Shown: piece by piece, positions 51,682 through 61,560 of the stretch | Layout of the letters: each line of letters opens with the position of its first letter | Position numbering within the stretch: position 1 is the stretch's first letter | Source of the DNA: Actinomycetota bacterium | GTDB lineage: Bacteria > Actinomycetota > CADDZG01 > JAHWKV01 > JAOPZY01 | NCBI GenBank assembly: GCA_035765775.1 | Contig: DASTWV010000043.1 | Coordinates: 1 to 64,000 of the forward strand | Direction of reading: 5' to 3' | DNA length: 64,000 nucleotides | Program-made: the position numbers and the translations under genes | Notes under the pieces: model-generated | Database searches by the model: none | The model's input: the letters and a program-made list of their open reading frames with translations, nothing else | Told to the model about the DNA's origin: nothing

Positions 51682-52251
51682 TCACCTCGCGGTTTCCGAC
51701 GCCAGCAGGTCCATGAGCAGGCCGTCGTGGAAGGTGCCGTCGAGCCCCCGCTCGTACTCCCGCAGGATCCCCACCGGCCGGAAGCCCACCTTTTCGTAGG
51801 AGCGGATCGCCCGGGCGTTGGCGGCGGCGGGGTCGATGGTCAGGCGGTGGTGGTGGCGCTGGTCGATGAGGAAGCGCACCAGGAGCCCGACCGCCTCAGT
51901 GCCCAGGCCGCGGCCCTGATGGGCGGTGGACAGGAAGATGTCGATCCCGGCGTGGCGGTACTGCTCCACCGGCTGCTCGCAGTACTGGATGCCGCCCGCG
52001 ACCGCCCCACCGGCCTCGATGACCAGCATCACGCACTCGCCGTCGCCCGCCAGCGCCTCGGCGAGGTCCTCCTCGTCGTCGGGCTCCCCCCACCACAGCA
52101 TGACCGACGCCTCGGCGAGGATCGCCCGCAAACGGGGGACGTCGTCCGGCTCGCCCGGGCGGAGGACCACGCGGTCACCCCGCAGGACAGCCAGGCGGGG
52201 GTAGGGGTCGGGCGCCGCCGGGATGCTACTCGTGGCCGGCGGCCAGCTCAC
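51682..52251 (-). CDS. GNAT-family N-acetyltransferase
   Basis: A 189-residue acetyltransferase. The acetyl-CoA loop is visible at HQGRGLGTEAVGLL; VVLRPGEPDDVPRL and NARAIRSYEKVGFRPVGILREY match RimJ/AacA4-type GNATs. GTG 52251 is the best start, overlapping the end of proC by 26 bp; no ATG is closer to the conserved N-terminus. Confidence 0.83.
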   Translation of the reverse strand: MSWPPATSSIPAAPDPYPRLAVLRGDRVVLRPGEPDDVPRLRAILAEASVMLWWGEPDDEEDLAEALAGDGECVMLVIEAGGAVAGGIQYCEQPVEQYRHAGIDIFLSTAHQGRGLGTEAVGLLVRFLIDQRHHHRLTIDPAAANARAIRSYEKVGFRPVGILREYERGLDGTFHDGLLMDLLASETAR

Positions 52252-53041
52252 GGGAGCGCTCCATCGCCGCCTGGATGGCATTCAGCAGGGCGGCCCGCAC
52301 CCCGGCCTGCTCCAGCTGGCGGATCGCCATGATGGTGGTGCCGCCGGGGGAGGTCACCGCCTCCCGGAGCTCGACGGGGTGCATGTGGGCGTCCCCGAGC
52401 AACCGGGCGGTGCCCAGCATCGTCTGGACGACGAGGTCGGTGGACACCCGCCGGGACAGCCCGAGCATGATGCCGGCGTCGATCATGGCCTCCGCCAGCA
52501 GGGCGAAGTAGGCCGGCCCGGACCCCGATACCGCGGTCACCGCGTCCATCGACGCCTCGGAGACGGTCACCACCTTGCCGACGTGGGCGAGCACGGCCTC
52601 GGCGGCCTCCAGGTGCTGGCGGGTGGCCGAGCTGCCGGCGCACACCCCGGCGATGCCCTCGCGCACCTGGGAGGGGGCGTTGGGCATCGCCCGCACGACC
52701 GGGACGCCGGGGGGCAGGCGGCGCTCGATGTAGCTGGTGGAGATGGCGGCGGCCACCGAGAGCACCAGGTGCTCGGGGGTCACCTCGGTGGCGATCTCGT
52801 CCAGCAGGTGCTCCACGTCGGTGGGCTTGACCGACACGACGAGGGTGCGGGCCTCCCTGGCCGCCTCCTGGTTGGAGGTGGTGGCGTGGAAGCCGTAGCG
52901 GGCGGCCAGCTCTTCGGCTCGCTCCGGGCGCCGGGCGGTGACGATGATCTGGTCGGGCCGCTTCCAGCCGGACGCGGCGAGACCGGCGGCGAGGATCTCG
53001 CCGATCTTGCCGCACCCCAGGATCGCCAGGCCGTCGTCCAC
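52226..53041 (-). CDS. proC: Pyrroline-5-carboxylate reductase
   Basis: A 271-residue enzyme that makes proline. ILGCGKIGEILAAGL binds NAD(P)H, VSVKPTDVEHLL and VVRAMPNAPSQVREGIAGV follow, and AVSGSGPAYFALLAEAMIDAG plus SPGGTTIMAI are the diagnostic C-terminal motifs. GTG 53041. Divergent from proline dehydrogenase with 37 bp between starts. Confidence 0.95.
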   Translation of the reverse strand: MDDGLAILGCGKIGEILAAGLAASGWKRPDQIIVTARRPERAEELAARYGFHATTSNQEAAREARTLVVSVKPTDVEHLLDEIATEVTPEHLVLSVAAAISTSYIERRLPPGVPVVRAMPNAPSQVREGIAGVCAGSSATRQHLEAAEAVLAHVGKVVTVSEASMDAVTAVSGSGPAYFALLAEAMIDAGIMLGLSRRVSTDLVVQTMLGTARLLGDAHMHPVELREAVTSPGGTTIMAIRQLEQAGVRAALLNAIQAAMERSRELAAGHE

Positions 53042-53078
53042 CGGCCGAAGTATAGGGACGCCCTACGATGGCACGACG
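53042..53078. promoter_or_regulatory. Short divergent promoter region between proC and proline dehydrogenase
   Basis: Only 37 bp separate two start codons. TACGAT (53062-53067), about 12 bp before ATG 53079, could be a -10 element for a nearly leaderless proline dehydrogenase message. Confidence 0.4.
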
Positions 53079-53990
53079 ATGCCCAACCACCTCCTCCTGC
53101 AGATCGCCGGCAACGAGCGGCTGAAGGAGCTGATCTCCTCGAGCCCGGTCACCCGCCCGGTGGTCGAACGCTTCGTCGCCGGCGACACCCTGGACGACGC
53201 CGTCCGGGTCGCCCAGGAGCTGAAGGCGGGCGGCGTGGGGGCGATCTTCGACTACCTGGGTGAGAACGTGTCCACCGAGCAGCAGGCCGACGCCGCCATG
53301 GCGGCCTACATCGCCAGCCTGCGGGGGATCATCGCCCTCCGCCTGGACGCCCACGTGTCGGTCAAGCTCACCCAGCTGGGCCTCGACCTCTCCTTCGAGT
53401 CCGCCCTCGGGCGGCTGCGCCAGATCGTCGAGGCGGCCTCCCAGGGACCCCGGACAAAGGTGGCCATCGACATGGAGTCGCACGCCTACACCGACCGCAC
53501 CATCGAGGCCTACCGAGCCCTGCGGCCCTCCACCGACCGCCTCGTCCTCTGCCTGCAGGCGTACCTGAGGCGCACCGAGGCCGACGCCGGGTCCCTGGTC
53601 GCCCTGGAGCCCAGCGTCCGGCTGTGCAAGGGCGCCTACGACGAGCCGAAGGAGATCGCCTTCGGCCACCAGGCCACGATGGGCTCCTACCGGCGCTGCC
53701 TGGCCCTGCTGCTGCCCACCTCACCCTGGACGGCAGTGGCCACCCACGACGAGCTGTGCGTCAAGGAGGCGATCCGCATCGCCCGCCGGCGCCGGGTGAC
53801 GGCCGACCGGTTCGAGTTCGAGATGCTCTACGGCGTGCGCCGGGACCTCCAGGCCGCCCTGGTGGAGCAGGGCTACGGCGTGCGGGTCTACCTGCCGTTC
53901 GGCACCCAGTGGTACCCGTACCTCATGCGCCGCATGGCCGAGCGGCCGGCGAACCTGCGCCTGTTCGTGGAATCGGTCCTGCGGGGCTGA
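53079..53990 (+). CDS. Proline dehydrogenase
   Basis: A 303-residue monofunctional FAD enzyme oxidising proline to pyrroline-5-carboxylate. VSVKLTQLGLDLS, VAIDMESHAYTDRTIEAYR, VLCLQAYLRRTEAD, VRLCKGAYDEPKEIAF, VATHDELCVKEA and EFEMLYGVRRDLQAALVEQGY are characteristic. It catalyses the reverse direction of the product of proC. Confidence 0.95.
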   Translation: MPNHLLLQIAGNERLKELISSSPVTRPVVERFVAGDTLDDAVRVAQELKAGGVGAIFDYLGENVSTEQQADAAMAAYIASLRGIIALRLDAHVSVKLTQLGLDLSFESALGRLRQIVEAASQGPRTKVAIDMESHAYTDRTIEAYRALRPSTDRLVLCLQAYLRRTEADAGSLVALEPSVRLCKGAYDEPKEIAFGHQATMGSYRRCLALLLPTSPWTAVATHDELCVKEAIRIARRRRVTADRFEFEMLYGVRRDLQAALVEQGYGVRVYLPFGTQWYPYLMRRMAERPANLRLFVESVLRG

Positions 53991-54057
53991 GCCGGGCACG
54001 CCCCGCTTACCCCGGCCGCCCAGCCAGCCCGCCCTGCTCCCACCGGCCCCGGCTGGG

Positions 54058-54918
54058 CTACCCCCGGAGGGCCGCCTTGGGGTACGAACCCAGGACCCGC
54101 AGGAACGACGTGTGGTCGGCCACCGCCTGCAGGGCCTCCTGGGCGACCGGGTCGTGGGCCGGGGCGTCGAAGTCCACGTAGAAGTTGGATTGCCAGGCCT
54201 TGGCCCTCGAGGGACGGTGCTCCAGCTTGGACAAGTTGAGGTGGCGCTCAGCGAAGGCCCCGAGGCAGCGGTACAGCGCCCCGGGCACATCGGCGGTGGT
54301 GAACACCACCGAGGTCTTCTCCGGCGGGCCGAACAGCTCGGCCGGGTTGCCGCTGCGGGCCGAGGCGATGGCCACGAACTTCGTCGAGTTGTCGGCCCGG
54401 TCCTCGATGTCGGAGGCCAGCACCTCCAGCCCGTACAGCTCGCCGGCCTCGGCCGAGGCGATGGCGGCCGCGGCGGGCTGCTTCTTCTCGGCCAGGAGGC
54501 GGGCGGCGCCGGCGGTGTCGTGCACCGCCACCCGCTCGACCTGCAGCGAGTCGAGGAACTCCGAGCACTGGTCGAGGGCCTGGGCGTGCGAGTAGACGGT
54601 GCGCACCTCGTCCATGGCGGTACCGGGCAGCACCAGCAGGCAGTGGGAGATGCGCACGATGGTCTCGGCGACGATCTGCACGCCGTGGCGCACCAGCAGG
54701 TCGTAGCTCTCGTTGATGGAGCCGGCGTGCGAGTTCTCCAGGGGCACAACCCCGTAGCCCACGGTCCCGATCTCCACCGCCTCGAAGACCCGGTGCACCG
54801 AGTGGAACGGCACCGACTGCGCCTCCTTGAAGAGGCGGGTGACCGCACGCTGGCTGTAGGCGCCCGCCTCGCCCTGGTAGCCGACCTGCAGGACCCGGGC
54901 GTCCGTGTTCGTGATCAT
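54058..54918 (-). CDS. pheA: Prephenate dehydratase
   Basis: A 286-residue monofunctional dehydratase for phenylalanine synthesis. VGYQGEAGAYSQRAV, YGVVPLENSHAGSINESYDLL and DRADNSTKFVAIAS (the catalytic Thr) mark the PDT domain. Residues about 200-280 form a regulatory ACT domain (KTSVVFTTADVPGALYRCL, LSKLEHRPSRAKAWQSNFY), the expected phenylalanine-binding site. It has a 350-bp non-coding leader region upstream. Confidence 0.95.
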   Translation of the reverse strand: MITNTDARVLQVGYQGEAGAYSQRAVTRLFKEAQSVPFHSVHRVFEAVEIGTVGYGVVPLENSHAGSINESYDLLVRHGVQIVAETIVRISHCLLVLPGTAMDEVRTVYSHAQALDQCSEFLDSLQVERVAVHDTAGAARLLAEKKQPAAAAIASAEAGELYGLEVLASDIEDRADNSTKFVAIASARSGNPAELFGPPEKTSVVFTTADVPGALYRCLGAFAERHLNLSKLEHRPSRAKAWQSNFYVDFDAPAHDPVAQEALQAVADHTSFLRVLGSYPKAALRG

Positions 54919-55268
54919 TGCCGGCGAAACCTAGCACGACGACTCCGCCGGGCCCCGGACGCGGTTAAGGCCCGAGCTACCTCCGAATCGACAGCCAGAG
55001 CGCACTTCCCCACACACTCCGACCGCCGACCCCTTAGCAACTCGGGCCCTAAGCGTCCCAAGCGACCTCTTGAAGGGGAGCCGCTGGTGCGACGTCGAGG
55101 ACCCCTCGTCGAGCCTGCCGCCTCGCCCGGCGTTCCCCCTGTAGCAGCGGGTTTCCCCTCCGCAACGGGCGACCGCTCGGGTCCGCCGACCTGCTCTTCC
55201 AGAGTCCCCGGACGGCTACCTCCGGCTCCGTTCCCCCTGCCGACCGCTTGGGACAGGGGGCAAGATAC
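54919..55268. other. 350-bp non-coding region with long inverted repeats upstream of pheA
   Basis: No protein is convincing here. AGGCCCGAG near 54968 pairs with CTCGGGCCC near 55042, closing a loop of about 65 bases; CCCCCTG/CAGGGGG at about 55233-55260 forms a 7-bp hairpin just after the mshA-like stop; GACG-TCGAGG/CCTCG-TCG pairs near 55091-55112. The region could be a pheA leader, an unknown small RNA, or simply the terminator of the upstream gene. Signatures of tRNA, tmRNA, RNase P and SRP RNA were looked for and not found. Confidence 0.45.
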
Positions 55269-56660
55269 TTATCCGACGCCGGGGGCGTCAAGGGGCGGGC
55301 CGGAGATTTCTTCGCGTGCTCGGAAGTTTCTTCGCGCTCCCTGCTCCTGCCCCCGAAGGGCGACCGATTCGGCGTGATCGCGAGCGCTGACCATGTACAG
55401 ATCGGTCAATTCCGCAGCCGAGCGATCCCAGGAGAAATCCCGGGACGAGCACTGGGCGAGGCGCCCCATGCTCTCGGCCAGGGGCCGGTCGGACAGCACC
55501 CGCCAGATTCGTTCGGCGAAGGCGGCGCTGGCCCCGGGCTGGACCAGGAAGCCGGTCTGGCCGTGGCGCACGATGGCCCGCAGCCCGCCGACCGCGCCCC
55601 CGACCACCGGCGTGCCGCACGCCTGGGCCTCGAGGGCCACCAGGCCGAAGGATTCGGTGTGCGACGGCACCAGGGCGACCTCGGCCGCCTGGTAGAAGGC
55701 GGGCAGCTCGCCCTGGGGCTGGGCGGGCAGGAAGCACACCGCGCCGGCGACCCCGAGACGCTCGGCCAGCGCCCGCAGGCGGGCGGGCTCGGCCTCGCCG
55801 CTGCGCCCGGAGCTGCCGCCGACGATGACGAGCATCGCCTCCTCGAGGGCGAGCCGGCCCCAGTCCACCAGGTGGGCAAGCGCCTGGATCGCGGTGTCGG
55901 CGCCCTTCAGCGGCTGCAGCCGGCCGACGAAGAGCAGGAGCCGGCGGCCGGCCAGCGCCGGTGCCCCGGCCTCGGCCAGCCGGGGGGCCAGGGCGGCCCG
56001 CGCGGCGGCGGTGTCCCCGTCGGGGGCGGGGACGAAGCGGGTGTGGTCGACGCCGGGGTGGATGACGTGGATGCGCTCGGGGTGGGCGGCGTAGAGGTCC
56101 ACCAGCCACTCCCGCTCTTCCCAGGTGGAAGCGACGATGGCATCCGCCTCGGCGATCACCCGGGCCTCGCCCCGCAGGCGGACCTCGGGCTCGATGGCCT
56201 CGCCCGCCGCCCGGCCCTCGTTCTTGACCCGCCCGAGGGTGTGGAAGGTGTGGACGAAGGGGATCCCCCAGTGGGCGGCCAGCCGGGCGGCGACCCGCCC
56301 CGAGAGCCAGTAGTGGCTGTGCAGCAGGTCGTAGTGCACGCCCCGGCGCTCGGCGTCACGCACGAGGTTGGCGGTGAAGCTGGGCAGGTACGCCGGGATC
56401 TCCTCCTTGGAGAGCCCGGGCGGCCCGGCGGCGATCGGGCGCACCTTGACCCCTGGGAACAGCTCCCGGGTCTTCGGCCTCCCGCCGGACTCGCTGTCCT
56501 GGCGGGTGTAGATGTCCACCTTCAGACCCTGGGCGGCGAGCGACCGGGCCATCTCCCGCACGTAGACCGTCATGCCCCCGGCGTCGCCCACCCCGGGCTC
56601 GGCGACCGGGTTCGAGTGCACCACCAGCATCCCGACACGGCGCAGCCGCCGGTGCGGCAC
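55269..56660 (-). CDS. mshA: MshA-like GT4 glycosyltransferase
   Basis: A 463-residue GT-B enzyme. The N-terminal MLVVHSNPVAEPGVGDAGG closely follows MshA, which joins GlcNAc to inositol-3-phosphate in mycothiol synthesis, and HSHYWLSGRVAARLA and FVGRLQPLKGADTAI continue the match. The donor-site segment is SHTESFGLVALEAQACGTPVVG. The C-terminal 45 residues are basic and divergent. MshA-related sucrose-phosphate-synthase-like enzymes are the main alternative. Confidence 0.82.
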   Translation of the reverse strand: MPHRRLRRVGMLVVHSNPVAEPGVGDAGGMTVYVREMARSLAAQGLKVDIYTRQDSESGGRPKTRELFPGVKVRPIAAGPPGLSKEEIPAYLPSFTANLVRDAERRGVHYDLLHSHYWLSGRVAARLAAHWGIPFVHTFHTLGRVKNEGRAAGEAIEPEVRLRGEARVIAEADAIVASTWEEREWLVDLYAAHPERIHVIHPGVDHTRFVPAPDGDTAAARAALAPRLAEAGAPALAGRRLLLFVGRLQPLKGADTAIQALAHLVDWGRLALEEAMLVIVGGSSGRSGEAEPARLRALAERLGVAGAVCFLPAQPQGELPAFYQAAEVALVPSHTESFGLVALEAQACGTPVVGGAVGGLRAIVRHGQTGFLVQPGASAAFAERIWRVLSDRPLAESMGRLAQCSSRDFSWDRSAAELTDLYMVSARDHAESVALRGQEQGARRNFRAREEISGPPLDAPGVG

Positions 56661-56786
56661 GGGGGCGAGCGGGGTGTCACGGACGGCCAGGGGGGTCTCC
56701 TTCGCGGCAGCGGACTGGGGGTGGCGTGCGCGGGCTGCGGACCTATGGTACCCAGCACCCAGGTATAGTCGGGCCCCGAACGACCC

Positions 56787-57803
56787 TCAGGTCTTCCCGG
56801 GCCGGGTGATCTGCACGGCGTGCAGCGGGAGGCGCTCGGCCCCCAGCTCGAACTTGTAGCGCTCGGTGCCCCGCAGGAAATCGAAGCGAGCCATCCCGGC
56901 CGCGATGCAGCGCTCGATGAGGCGCACCACCAGCACGATGCCGGGCGAGATCCCCCCCTGGCCGGCGGTGAGCGCCGAGTTGTACAGGTAGAAGGACCCC
57001 TCGTACGGGAACGAGAACGTCGTGGCGATCCGGTCCCCGCCAGCCGTCTGCAGGAAGTCGAGGCTGAGCATGCCGTGGGGCTCCAGGGTGCGGGCGATCC
57101 GGGTGAAGAACGTCTCCCGCGCCGCACCCATGAAGTGGCCCTTCTCGCCCTCGCTGCCCCGGTGCATGGCGAAGAAAGCCGCAAGGTCGGCATCGAGGCG
57201 CTCTGGGGTGGTGGTGGTGAGCACCGCGCCCGGCGTCGCCTCCTCGAAGCGGCGCATCTTGCGGCGCAGCTCGTGGCGGCGGTGCTTGCCGAGCTGTTCC
57301 AGGTAGGCGTCGAAGGAGTCCGGCAGGCTCATCACGGCGGTCATCTCGTGCTCGTCGATCACAAACGGCAGCCCGAGCCGGTCGGCGGCCTCCACCAGCC
57401 ACTCGGCGAACTGGAAGGGCACCGGCAGGCAGCGGGCATCGACCTTGGTCCAGCCCGGGATCTCCTCGACGGCGTAGGTCAGCAGAGCCTCGGCGATGGC
57501 CGGCTGGCGCTCGTGCCCGGCCGAGATCGGCCCCATGTAGTCGGTCAGGTCCTCGCCGCCCAGGAACGTGAGGCACCCGGGGCAGTCGGGGCCGGCGGGG
57601 TCCAGGACCAGCGGCGCCAGGCCCACCGGGTCCGGGTCGAGGAAGGTCAGGACCAGGAGGCGGCGCCCAGCACCGAACTCGCCCCACCACGCCCGGCTCC
57701 ACTCGGGAGTGGCGAACACGTGGCGGTAGGGGTCGGCGGCCAGCAACGCCGGCCACTGGGGCAGGTCGAAGGCGGCCTCCCCCTCGGTGACGGCGACATC
57801 CAC
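56787..57803 (-). CDS. BcsL/CelD or FemAB-like GNAT protein
   Basis: A 338-residue protein of the Acetyltransf_6 type. HRRHELRRKMRRFEEA and the C-terminal FSFPYEGSFYLYNSALTAG plus FDFLRGTERYKFELGA are recognisable signatures of BcsL/CelD proteins, which occur in cell-envelope polysaccharide loci and are related to FemABX aminoacyl transferases. The acyl donor and acceptor are unknown. GTG 57803. Confidence 0.85.
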   Translation of the reverse strand: MDVAVTEGEAAFDLPQWPALLAADPYRHVFATPEWSRAWWGEFGAGRRLLVLTFLDPDPVGLAPLVLDPAGPDCPGCLTFLGGEDLTDYMGPISAGHERQPAIAEALLTYAVEEIPGWTKVDARCLPVPFQFAEWLVEAADRLGLPFVIDEHEMTAVMSLPDSFDAYLEQLGKHRRHELRRKMRRFEEATPGAVLTTTTPERLDADLAAFFAMHRGSEGEKGHFMGAARETFFTRIARTLEPHGMLSLDFLQTAGGDRIATTFSFPYEGSFYLYNSALTAGQGGISPGIVLVVRLIERCIAAGMARFDFLRGTERYKFELGAERLPLHAVQITRPGKT

Positions 57804-57849
57804 GGCCGAGACGCTAGCACGGGCCCTGTTGTGGGCCGGTCTTGTCGTA

Positions 57850-58470
57850 CCCTCCAGGGCGTCTACCGGCTGGCGGGCATGACCCCCAGCGTGCGCCAGG
57901 ACATGATGGCGGCCGTCCTCGCCGGGGGCACGGGGCCGTACTGTCGCACCGGGCCGCCGCCTGGCTCCTGGGCCTCCCCGGCGGCAGCATGGCGCCGGCG
58001 ATCACCGTGCCCCGCGGCCGCCGGCCCCGGGCGCCGGGGGTGACGCTGCACACCACCACCGACATGCCGGTACCGGATTGGGGCGTGCACCAGAACATCC
58101 CGGTCACCACACCCGCCCGCCTCCTGGGTGACATGGTCCCCGTCACCTCTCGCCGGGAACTGGAGATCCTGGTGGACGCGATCCTGGCCAAGGACCTGGC
58201 TAAGCGGTCCCGGATCGCCTGGCGCATCCAGGAGCTGTCCAGGCAGGGCCGGGAGACAGGCGTGCTGGTGGAGCTGCTCGAGGCCCGCACCGACGAGGCC
58301 GGGGTCCCGGCCAGCGTGCTCGAAAGCCCATTCCGGCTCGTGGTCCAGGGCTTTCCCGGCCTCACCTTCAACCGGCGGGTGGTGGCGGGCAAGGAACGCC
58401 GGGTGGACTGTGACCTCAACCCGCTGAACCTCATCGCTGCCTGGGCAGCGGTAGACCCGCGGGTGGCGGA
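57850..58470 (+). pseudogene. Frameshifted AbiEi-antitoxin-like gene
   Basis: The first part of the gene reads in one frame (QGVYRLAGMTPSVRQDM then AAVLAGG) and the next part in another (AVLSHRAAAWLLGLPG, DWGVHQNIPVTTPARLLGDM, ASVLESPFRLVVQGFP), the shift lying in a G-run at about 57924-57935. Together they follow the order of type IV AbiEi-family antitoxin proteins with a DUF559-like tail. The start is not clear and the tail ends early, against the HD-GYP gene stop, so it is degenerate. No AbiEii toxin gene adjoins it. Confidence 0.65.
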
Positions 58471-59199
58471 TCAGGCGATCTGCGGCTCCGGGAGCGGCAG
58501 CACGGACGCCAGGCGCAGGAAGACGTCCACCACCTCGGGATCGAACTGCACGCCCGCCCCCGCCTCCAGGCGGTCGAGCGCCTCGTCGACCGCCAGGGCC
58601 CGGCGGTAGGGCCGGTCGGTGGTCATGGCGTCGAAGGCGTCCACCACCGAGAACACCCGGGCGCACAGCGGGATGTTCCGGCCCGTCAGGCCCTCGGGGT
58701 ACCCGGTGCCGTTGAACCACTCGTGGTGGCAGCGGATGACGTCGAGGGCGTCGGCGTCGAGGAAGCGCAGCGGTGCGACGATCCGCAGCCCCATCGGGAC
58801 GTGCGAACGCATGATGGCCTCCTCGGCCCGGGTGAGCGGCCCGGCCTTGTCGAGGATGGACTCGGGGACCACCACCTTGCCGACATCGTGCAGCAGGAAA
58901 CCGTACTCCAGCTCCGGGTTGACCATGTCGGCGTCGATCGCCTCGGCCAGCGCCAGCCCGTAGGTGCGGCAGCGCTCCAGGTGGGAGCCCGTCACGGCGT
59001 CCTTGGCGTCCACCATAAAGGCGAGGGTCTGGACCATGGAGTAGTCAATTGCCCGCCGCTCCAGCACCAGCTCTTCGAGGCGCGCCTTCTGCGCCCGCTC
59101 CCGCCGGTACGCCTCGCCCACTTCTTTGGCGAAGACGAGGAGCTGCTGGCGCGTGCGGTCCAGGTCCATTACGTAGTTCCCTGCGACGTCCTCAGCCAC
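58471..59199 (-). CDS. HD-GYP domain protein (c-di-GMP phosphodiesterase)
   Basis: A 242-residue protein: a short coiled-coil N-terminus (residues 12-52), then an HD-GYP domain. The metal-binding HD is at 104-105 in FLLHDVGK, His73, His158-His159 in RCHHEWFNGTGYPEG, and GYP at 166-168; the trailing DAFDAMTTDRPYR completes the signature. It should hydrolyse c-di-GMP. GTG 59199 has GGGGGAGGGGG about seven bases upstream. It lies about 1 kb from the rsiG-like gene. Confidence 0.93.
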   Translation of the reverse strand: MAEDVAGNYVMDLDRTRQQLLVFAKEVGEAYRRERAQKARLEELVLERRAIDYSMVQTLAFMVDAKDAVTGSHLERCRTYGLALAEAIDADMVNPELEYGFLLHDVGKVVVPESILDKAGPLTRAEEAIMRSHVPMGLRIVAPLRFLDADALDVIRCHHEWFNGTGYPEGLTGRNIPLCARVFSVVDAFDAMTTDRPYRRALAVDEALDRLEAGAGVQFDPEVVDVFLRLASVLPLPEPQIA

Positions 59200-59525
59200 C
59201 GGTCGTCCCCCTCCCCCAAGCGGCGGCCTCCGCCGCCACTAACAAGATTAGCGCCCGCGACTGGCGGAAAGATACTCCTGCGGGCCACCGAAGCGGTGAG
59301 TTTTTCTTCAGGCCCGGGCGACGCTCCGAGCGGTCCCGGGCGCGCCCGGGATAGGCCCGGTCGGTCCCGCAACTCCCGAAACGGGGCACCGACCTAAAGC
59401 TGCAGCCCGATCCCGCCGACGCTTACTCACGCGTGCACTAGTCATTTTTCGCTATGGCACACCATCCCGGCGGGCCACCCCTCCGGGGGGCTGTAGGCCG
59501 GAACGCAGGGCGGCAGGAGTTCGCA
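59200..59525. promoter_or_regulatory. Non-coding region with an 18-bp perfect palindrome
   Basis: About 325 bp between divergent genes. TCCCGGGCGCGCCCGGGA at 59334-59351 is a perfect 18-bp dyad and a candidate operator or hairpin. No RNA gene or riboswitch class was recognised. Confidence 0.5.
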
Positions 59526-60224
59526 GTGCGACGTACTGGCGGTTCGAGGATGTTCATCTGGGTGATCGCGGTCCTGACCGCAGGGCTACTCTCGGTCACC
59601 CTCTTCGCCATGAACCGGTCGCTGCAGAACGCCATCTCGCCCCTCTTCGCCGCCGGGCGGGTGCAACCCACCGCCGCCGCCGGATCGCCCAGCCCGCTGA
59701 CGCCGGCCACCCCCATCGTGCTGGCCACAGCCACCACCGTGCCGCCCGCCGAGCCCCTGGTGGGCGTGAACTTCGCCGCCCCGGACACCGGCTCCGGCCT
59801 TTCCCCGAATCCCGCCCCGAATCCCGCCCCGGCGCCCGCCCACGCACCCCAGGCGCCCGTCCACAAGCCAGCCCCCAGGGTGCTCGCCGCCGCCATCTCC
59901 GTGCCCAAGGCCGGGGCGTTGGTGGCGCCGGTCGCCGAGGTGCCCCGGCCCCCGGTCGCGCCCGTGAAGGCCGCGGTCGCGCTCGCCGCGGCGCTGCACT
60001 CCCCCACCCAGACCGCCTTTCTCGACATGCCTGCCGTGGCGCCCCTGTCCACGCCGGCAGTGGCGGCAATCGTGCTGCCGGTGCCGCATGTGATCACCAC
60101 GATGCCCATGCCCACCCCGACCGCGACCCACCATCACCACGACGGCGCCCAGGAATCGGTGGGGACGAGGAGCGGGGGCCACAACGGCCGGAGCCCGGAC
60201 CGCGGGGACAGCCGGGACAGCTAG
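59526..60224 (+). CDS. Proline/alanine-rich single-pass membrane protein
   Basis: A 232-residue protein starting at GTG 59526 (AGGAG seven bases upstream). One membrane segment near the N-terminus (MFIWVIAVLTAGLLSVTLFA) is followed by a long low-complexity Pro/Ala/Val region with PNPAPNPAPAPAHAP repeats and a His-rich end (HHHH). It is probably an extracytoplasmic stalk or an anchor; no domain is evident. Convergent with rsiG. Confidence 0.7.
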   Translation: MRRTGGSRMFIWVIAVLTAGLLSVTLFAMNRSLQNAISPLFAAGRVQPTAAAGSPSPLTPATPIVLATATTVPPAEPLVGVNFAAPDTGSGLSPNPAPNPAPAPAHAPQAPVHKPAPRVLAAAISVPKAGALVAPVAEVPRPPVAPVKAAVALAAALHSPTQTAFLDMPAVAPLSTPAVAAIVLPVPHVITTMPMPTPTATHHHHDGAQESVGTRSGGHNGRSPDRGDSRDS

Positions 60225-60238
60225 AGCGCTTCGGCGGG

Positions 60239-60778
60239 CTACGAGGACAGCAGGGCGGTCGGGTCTTCCTGGCCCTCGCGGTAGCGGCGCACCAGCTCGG
60301 CGGTGAACTGGTCCATGACGCCCTGGACCCGGCGGCGGCGCTGGGAGGTCTCCCGCTCCGCCTCGGTCAGGCGCTCGACCATGTCGCCGATCTCGTCGGA
60401 GGTCAGCTCCTCGAGCCGGGCCAGGTCGGCGGTGGACGCCACCCGCTCCACCTCCCGGCGCTGGTTGTCGGCGTTGGCCGGGGCCAGGATCCGGGGCAGC
60501 CGGCCAGCGGCGCCGCCGACGCCCTCGGAGAGGATGCCGGGCAGGTCCTCCACCATTTCGGTCACACCCAGGCTCTCGCCGTCGGCCATCTTCTCGGCGC
60601 CCGCCCGCAGGATGTCGAGCTTGCCCTGGATGAGGCGGCGGGCGTAGGAGATCTCCGCCTCGAGGGCCTCGCACTCGTCCTTGCGGCGGCGGATCTCCTC
60701 GACCGGCATGGCCTGCAGGCCCTCCACGTAGGTCGGATCAACGATCCGATCGATTGTCCTGCGCGGTCCCTCGGCCAT
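60239..60778 (-). CDS. rsiG: RsiG-type c-di-GMP-binding anti-sigma protein
   Basis: A 179-residue helical protein. Two copies of the c-di-GMP signature E(X)3S(X)2R(X)3Q(X)3D known from Streptomyces RsiG are perfect: Glu40-Ser44-Arg47-Gln51-Asp55, and Glu141-Ser145-Arg148-Gln152-Asp156. They sit in two antiparallel coiled-coil helices joined by a Gly/Pro-rich linker. In Streptomyces, RsiG with c-di-GMP sequesters the sigma factor WhiG; no sigma gene is in this window. Older databases call this family aerial mycelium formation protein. A c-di-GMP-hydrolysing HD-GYP gene is nearby. Confidence 0.88.
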   Translation of the reverse strand: MAEGPRRTIDRIVDPTYVEGLQAMPVEEIRRRKDECEALEAEISYARRLIQGKLDILRAGAEKMADGESLGVTEMVEDLPGILSEGVGGAAGRLPRILAPANADNQRREVERVASTADLARLEELTSDEIGDMVERLTEAERETSQRRRRVQGVMDQFTAELVRRYREGQEDPTALLSS

Positions 60779-60873
60779 ACAACAACATTACCAAGACTTG
60801 GGAGGCCCGCTTCCCACCGACCGCACCGGCGCAGCCGCGCGGGGACCCGGGGGCCCCGTGGCATGATTGCCTC

Positions 60874-61560
60874 GTGCGTGGCGTCGAGGATTACCTCCAG
60901 CAGATCAAGCGCCTCGAGGAGGGCGGGCAGCGCTGTACCGCCACCGTCCTCGCCCAGACCCTGGGCGTCTCCCTCCCCTCGGCCAGCGAGATGCTGAAGC
61001 GCCTGGCGGAGGAGGGCTACCTGGAGCGGGAGAAGGACGGGGCGATCCGCCTGACCGCCTTCGGCCGGCCGCTCGCCCACCAGGTGCTGCGCCGCCACCG
61101 GCTGGTCGAGCGCCTCCTCACCGACATCCTGGGCATGCCCTGGCACGAGGTCCACCGGGAGGCCCACCGGCTGGAGCACGCGGTCTCCAGCCGGGTCGAG
61201 GAGCACCTGGCCGCGGCCCTCGGCTACCCGGAGTACTGCCCGCACGGCCACCCGATCTGCCCGGTCGACCGCCGGGAGCTCCGCCCCTTGGAGGCGCTGC
61301 ACCCGGCCGAGCAGGCGGCGGTGGCCCAGATCTCCGAGATCTCCGAGGAGCTGCTGGCCTACCTGGACCAGATCGGCATCAGGCCGGGGACAGTGCTGAC
61401 CATGGTCGAGGCTGCCCCGTTCGACGGCCCGCTCACCTTCGAGGGCGAGGGTGGGCTGGTGACCGTGGGCCGGGAGGTGGCGGCCCACGTCCGGGTGTGC
61501 GACCCGGCGCAGGCCAGCTGGATCGAGCGCCGGGCGATGGGGATCGGGAGCCGGATCTAA
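60874..61560 (+). CDS. DtxR/IdeR-family metal-dependent repressor
   Basis: A 228-residue regulator. The winged helix (RCTATVLAQTLGVSLPSASEMLKRLAEEGYLERE) is shown by TLGVSLPSASEMLKRL; the dimerisation/metal domain has HRLVERLLTDILGMPWHEVHREAHRLEHAVS, with Glu, His and Cys (EYCPHGHPICP) as iron or manganese ligands. A C-terminal SH3-like domain (residues 155-225) follows. GTG 60874. Its stop overlaps the stop of kgd by 3 bp on the other strand. Confidence 0.94.
   Translation: MRGVEDYLQQIKRLEEGGQRCTATVLAQTLGVSLPSASEMLKRLAEEGYLEREKDGAIRLTAFGRPLAHQVLRRHRLVERLLTDILGMPWHEVHREAHRLEHAVSSRVEEHLAAALGYPEYCPHGHPICPVDRRELRPLEALHPAEQAAVAQISEISEELLAYLDQIGIRPGTVLTMVEAAPFDGPLTFEGEGGLVTVGREVAAHVRVCDPAQASWIERRAMGIGSRI

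Follow-up and report, generated by a model that had tools for sequence, protein, structure and literature searches.

The anti-sigma factor RsiG requires a dimer of c-di-GMP to hold the sigma factor WhiG, and in the crystal structure WhiG contacts c-di-GMP through residues K57, G61 and R62 (PMC8325347). In Rubrobacter, RsiG carries a single c-di-GMP motif and works as a homodimer, as in the (RsiG)2-(c-di-GMP)2-WhiG complex of Rubrobacter radiotolerans (PDB 7lq2-7lq4; PMC8325347). The RsiG-WhiG complex has an affinity of 0.4 uM and global c-di-GMP in Streptomyces falls only to ~1 uM (PMC13232838); how c-di-GMP is removed from so tight a complex is a current open question in the field. RmdB of S. 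venezuelae, a GGDEF-EAL phosphodiesterase, binds WhiG via its GGDEF domain and acts locally on the RsiG-WhiG complex (PMC13232838).

The window, by which we mean the whole stretch of 64,000 nucleotides from an uncultured Actinomycetota bacterium that was analyzed, contains an rsiG gene near a predicted HD-GYP phosphodiesterase gene (Table 1). The RsiG protein matches the RsiG profile PF22802 in two stretches (1.2e-22), scoring 79.8 bits where the cut-off is 27, and its closest solved structure, aligned over almost the full length, is S. venezuelae RsiG (PDB 6pfj/6pfv, 2.2e-16). The original prediction had identified this protein as an RsiG with an exact E(X)3S(X)2R(X)3Q(X)3D signature in each of two helices, and both points are borne out. 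When the whole window is translated in six frames (127,996 residues), the signature occurs exactly at these two places and nowhere else; among shuffled versions of the RsiG protein at least one motif occurred in 0.04% and two motifs in 0 of 200,000.

Table 1. Features around rsiG and their positions in the 64,000-nucleotide window.
Feature	Position	Strand	Details
HD-GYP phosphodiesterase (predicted), rsiG-linked subfamily	58471..59199	-	242 aa; HD_5 4.5e-30
Pro/Ala-rich, probably single-pass membrane protein with His-rich end	59454..60224	+	no Pfam match; start may be later
rsiG	60239..60778	-	twin-motif RsiG anti-sigma factor, 179 aa; assigned by PF22802, PDB match and fold
c-di-GMP motif 2, ERETSQRRRRVQGVMD	60311..60358	-	RsiG residues 141-156; exact match
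c-di-GMP motif 1, EAEISYARRLIQGKLD	60614..60661	-	RsiG residues 40-55; exact match
DtxR/MntR-like metal-dependent regulator	60874..61560	+	Fe_dep_repr_C 6.5e-28, FeoA 2e-14

In an AlphaFold model of the protein (pLDDT 84.1, pTM 0.77), two long helices spanning residues 26-65 and 127-167 bear one motif apiece and form a coiled coil, with low confidence in the loop at residues 85-95. A Foldseek search with this model returned, at E<=0.001, the S. venezuelae RsiG-WhiG-c-di-GMP crystals 6pfv/6pfj alone (E ~1e-5, TM 0.63-0.74, rmsd ~5 A). Two motifs, a score above the cut-off, a predicted antiparallel coiled-coil fold and the presence of WhiG in the genome together place the protein in the RsiG family; we found no viral copies of it. 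Its architecture is the Streptomyces twin-motif one, and, judging from the sequence, it should act as a monomer. Having two motifs, it does not belong to the single-motif homodimer type of Rubrobacter and Thermoleophilia, and the earlier description of binding "as in Streptomyces/Rubrobacter" was therefore wrong on its second half, since it conflated two architectures. The Rubrobacter system resembles the one described here in its motif and its sigma partner, and differs in RsiG architecture.

The motif residues vary to different degrees across the RsiG alignment (n=36). In motif 1, S44 and R47 are invariant, E40 is kept in 31/36 and D55 in 32/36, and position 51 is Q in 28 proteins and H in 8; in motif 2, E141, S145 and R148 are invariant and D156 is kept in 34/36, with position 152 variable (15 Q, 13 H, 8 other).

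The original prediction called for a WhiG-like sigma partner, and the genome encodes one: exactly one protein, of 282 aa, exceeds the FliA/WhiG cut-off (TIGR02479, 279.9 bits against 189.6), and its top PDB match is S. venezuelae WhiG (4e-100). Its K60, G64 and R65 correspond to K57, G61 and R62 of the S. venezuelae protein, so all three c-di-GMP contacts are kept. In four of the five WhiG proteins examined from relatives of family f2, A or S replaces the contact glycine. Searches of class members found RsiG in 24/24 and WhiG in 23/24. The whiG gene lies directly before rpsB (contig C26). Of 20 whiG neighborhoods extracted from relatives, 19 likewise contain rpsB close by, that of a Streptomyces-like genome (L275) among them. 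With its twin motifs, predicted fold and WhiG K/G/R contacts all like those of the S. venezuelae complex, an RsiG-WhiG switch very probably operates in this actinobacterium, and that it is of the ordinary, already known twin-motif kind is well supported.

On the other side of whiG (L082:11811-12659(-), contig C26) we observed a divergently oriented gene (L082:12934-15741(+)) whose HD-GYP product, 935 aa long, contains four TIG domains as well as segments that by eye look membrane-spanning. It also adjoins whiG in the sister genome G001 (L257) and was not found at that position in the other 19 relatives examined.

The enzyme gene near rsiG had likewise been anticipated, and its product carries every motif residue expected of an HD-GYP phosphodiesterase. 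The HD metal ligands and the HHE and GYP residues are all intact, and H73, H104-D105, H133, H158-H159-E160 and G166-Y167-P168 are invariant across the alignment of the subfamily. In a PDB search the protein resembled solved c-di-GMP/cGAMP phosphodiesterases (5z7c, 5e-37; 4r8z; 4mcw). The HD-GYP domain is preceded by a short helical N-terminus, in which Q19, A24 and Y31 are invariant across the subfamily; the protein has no further recognized domain. It thus shares its domain and its metal and GYP residues with stand-alone HD-GYP phosphodiesterases (PF13487; PDB 4r8z, 4mcw, 5z7c), and differs from them in its conserved N-terminal part and in the position of its subfamily, found only beside rsiG at the 310-bit threshold described below. 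The genome encodes six HD-GYP proteins over the cut-off and seven GGDEF proteins.

To define this subfamily we built a profile from the rsiG-linked copies and ran it over 397 Actinomycetota genomes, counting matches of 310 bits or more as strong; the window protein scores 344.6 bits. On the genome contigs, a single-sequence scan gave no match and an alignment-based scan gave matches. Strong matches were found in 24 genomes from eight families (f1, f2, f8, f9, f11, f12, f15 and f65), 13 of which had played no part in profile construction, and comparison of coordinates placed all 24 immediately after rsiG in the same orientation; no match of 310 bits or more lay away from rsiG in the 397 genomes. 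Below this threshold, partial matches in two genomes (G207 and G089) also adjoin rsiG, and the remaining matches are not beside any listed rsiG. Since the genome has six HD-GYP proteins, a chance HD-GYP neighbor of rsiG is unlikely (<1% by a rough count). The linkage is real, conserved and not accidental, and on this point the original prediction is supported. The association of rsiG with this HD-GYP subfamily is apparently unreported: we found no report of the gene pair in the main texts of the open-licence papers searched.

In 27 of the 114 rsiG loci of our RsiG tree, among them the window, the HD-GYP gene follows rsiG in the same orientation, and in the rsiG neighborhoods it never occurs upstream or on the opposite strand. 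The pair is present in named metagenome-assembled loci, including two labelled Acidimicrobiaceae (L142 and L163), and was not found in the examined Streptomyces-like, Geodermatophilaceae, Pseudonocardiaceae or single-motif RsiG loci, nor in another family of the same class (f3) or the sister genome G001. Because G001 retains RsiG and WhiG without this HD-GYP, the enzyme is dispensable. On a quick tree with many weak branches, the presence of HD-GYP requires at least 13 changes, against 24.4 when labels are shuffled; the pattern agrees with a single ancient pairing that was lost repeatedly, and the direction of change is not provable from the tree.

In five of six genomes of family f2, the gap between the aligned ends of rsiG and the HD-GYP gene is ~54-91 bp, an operon-like spacing. 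In the window, rsiG and its HD-GYP neighbor lie ~1 kb apart, with an opposite-strand open reading frame between them, so they do not form a contiguous same-strand transcription unit; there is no simple operon and co-transcription is doubtful. The intervening frame, which encodes the Pro-rich protein, is convergent with rsiG and divergent from the HD-GYP gene. The original prediction had counted this protein as part of the module; the frame is indeed present beside rsiG, and the role in the module did not hold up. A close homologue occurs at the same location only in G001 (N-terminal 75 aa, z=11), with a doubtful one in G004, indicating a lineage-specific protein that is probably not a member. 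The DtxR/MntR-like regulator is head-to-head with rsiG, and this upstream position is kept in many of the class members examined; we regard it as a neighbor of rsiG without a demonstrated tie to c-di-GMP. A c-di-GMP riboswitch or other RNA element was also considered and rejected, as the whole window had no Rfam match at gathering scores and only chance-level weak matches near the locus.

The locus belongs to a larger conserved block (window positions 52226-61560) in which rsiG is followed in many relatives by the optional HD-GYP and GNAT-like genes, a glycosyltransferase gene and proC, and which is conserved also where the HD-GYP gene is missing. Because the glycosyltransferase, GNAT-like and proC genes have no c-di-GMP tie, the adjacency of HD-GYP to rsiG may be inherited synteny of the same kind, which weakens any functional inference from linkage. 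That the HD-GYP is such a neutral neighbor, a reading to which its lack of a recognized targeting domain and its repeated gain or loss on the RsiG tree also lend weight, has perhaps an appreciable chance of being correct, though we think it the less probable account. Unlike the other members of the block, the HD-GYP works in RsiG's own pathway, c-di-GMP signalling; its subfamily is never seen elsewhere among strong matches and always takes the immediate same-strand position; and in one locus (L069) it still adjoins rsiG where the glycosyltransferase and GNAT-like genes were not found within 6 kb. These features speak in favor of function. On the model of S. venezuelae RmdB and its GGDEF domain (PMC13232838), the HD-GYP could instead act mainly through protein contact, competing as an anti-anti-sigma factor with RsiG or WhiG while hydrolysis is secondary, and the invariant Q19, A24 and Y31 of the helical part would suit such a role; we consider it improbable, since the full conservation of the metal-binding and GYP residues argues that catalysis matters. 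Least probable is that the RsiG-like protein has some other partner or ligand and keeps its motifs by descent alone. The variable glutamine of motif 2 among relatives would be in keeping with this, against which stand two exact motifs, a fold that matches RsiG and a co-occurring WhiG with its contact residues.

The best overall explanation, which we hold with modest confidence, is an RsiG-WhiG switch with a dedicated, linked HD-GYP. At high c-di-GMP, an intercalated c-di-GMP dimer would occupy the RsiG coiled coil and enable RsiG to keep WhiG inactive, the mode of action known from Streptomyces. The HD-GYP encoded beside rsiG would then lower c-di-GMP at or near the complex, and the local drop would disarm RsiG and free WhiG. 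The assignment of the HD-GYP as a dedicated phosphodiesterase is the less secure part of this explanation, and we judge it only slightly favored. Local action on RsiG-WhiG has a precedent, because RmdB acts there in Streptomyces (PMC13232838). RmdB is likewise a c-di-GMP phosphodiesterase at RsiG-WhiG; it is of the EAL type, whereas the window enzyme is an unrelated HD-GYP tied to rsiG by genomics only. A more elaborate version, in which the HD-GYP, distinct from RmdB, docks on RsiG-(c-di-GMP)2-WhiG and destroys the bound c-di-GMP and, in this family, the membrane HD-GYP divergent from whiG, its TIG domains facing outward, couples surface contact to WhiG, strikes us as rather unlikely. As an enzyme confined to the neighborhood of rsiG across several actinobacterial families, this HD-GYP is a candidate dedicated off-switch, with genes that can be tested. 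It suggests that lineages may differ in the enzyme that terminates the signal locally, with the EAL-type RmdB in Streptomyces and an HD-GYP here; no HD-GYP lies beside rsiG in a Streptomyces-like locus (L068).

The output of the switch in Streptomyces is sporulation, and the original prediction had proposed envelope or surface functions here. The WhiG regulon could not be read from promoter consensus. In the genome, the flagellar/WhiG consensus (TAAA / GCCGATAA) gave 28 sites against 32 for the control at a spacing of 15, no enrichment, and 43 against 27 at a spacing of 16, a weak excess. Genes downstream of the predicted sites are scattered and unrelated and form no coherent target set, and the window contains no WhiG-type site within two mismatches. 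A flagellar role was rejected, as the genome has no flagellin. The genome does have a type IV pilus cluster (contig C59, L123:685-10656), which encodes a prepilin-like protein, PilC, a PilT-like ATPase and a PilB with an MshEN domain. MshEN domains bind c-di-GMP, and this PilB is possibly a further c-di-GMP target. With a pilus cluster present and no flagellin, type IV pili are a candidate WhiG output, as was proposed for Rubrobacter. Envelope or surface control is thus possible, and the proposal as first made is not supported, given the narrow distribution of the Pro-rich protein and the unconvincing promoter enrichment.

WhiG-type promoter-like sites (TAAA, spacing 15-17, GCCGATAA, at most two mismatches) lie upstream of rsiG in five relatives (L043, L071, L134, L231 and L076), and a reversed control pattern gave no sites there; the window rsiG has none. 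Feedback in these few relatives is possible.

Across the phylum, RsiG was found in 243 of the 397 genomes, many of the matches being short frames of ~85-130 aa. Four of these that we opened (L076-L079) contain one motif each, and single-motif RsiG proteins may exceed the five reported. The record titles of three loci (L147, Melainabacteria; L207, Bifidobacterium breve; L139, Rhodococcus rhodnii) clash with the RsiG tree, which groups their RsiG with Pseudonocardiaceae or other Actinomycetes, and these assemblies are probably misnamed or contaminated.
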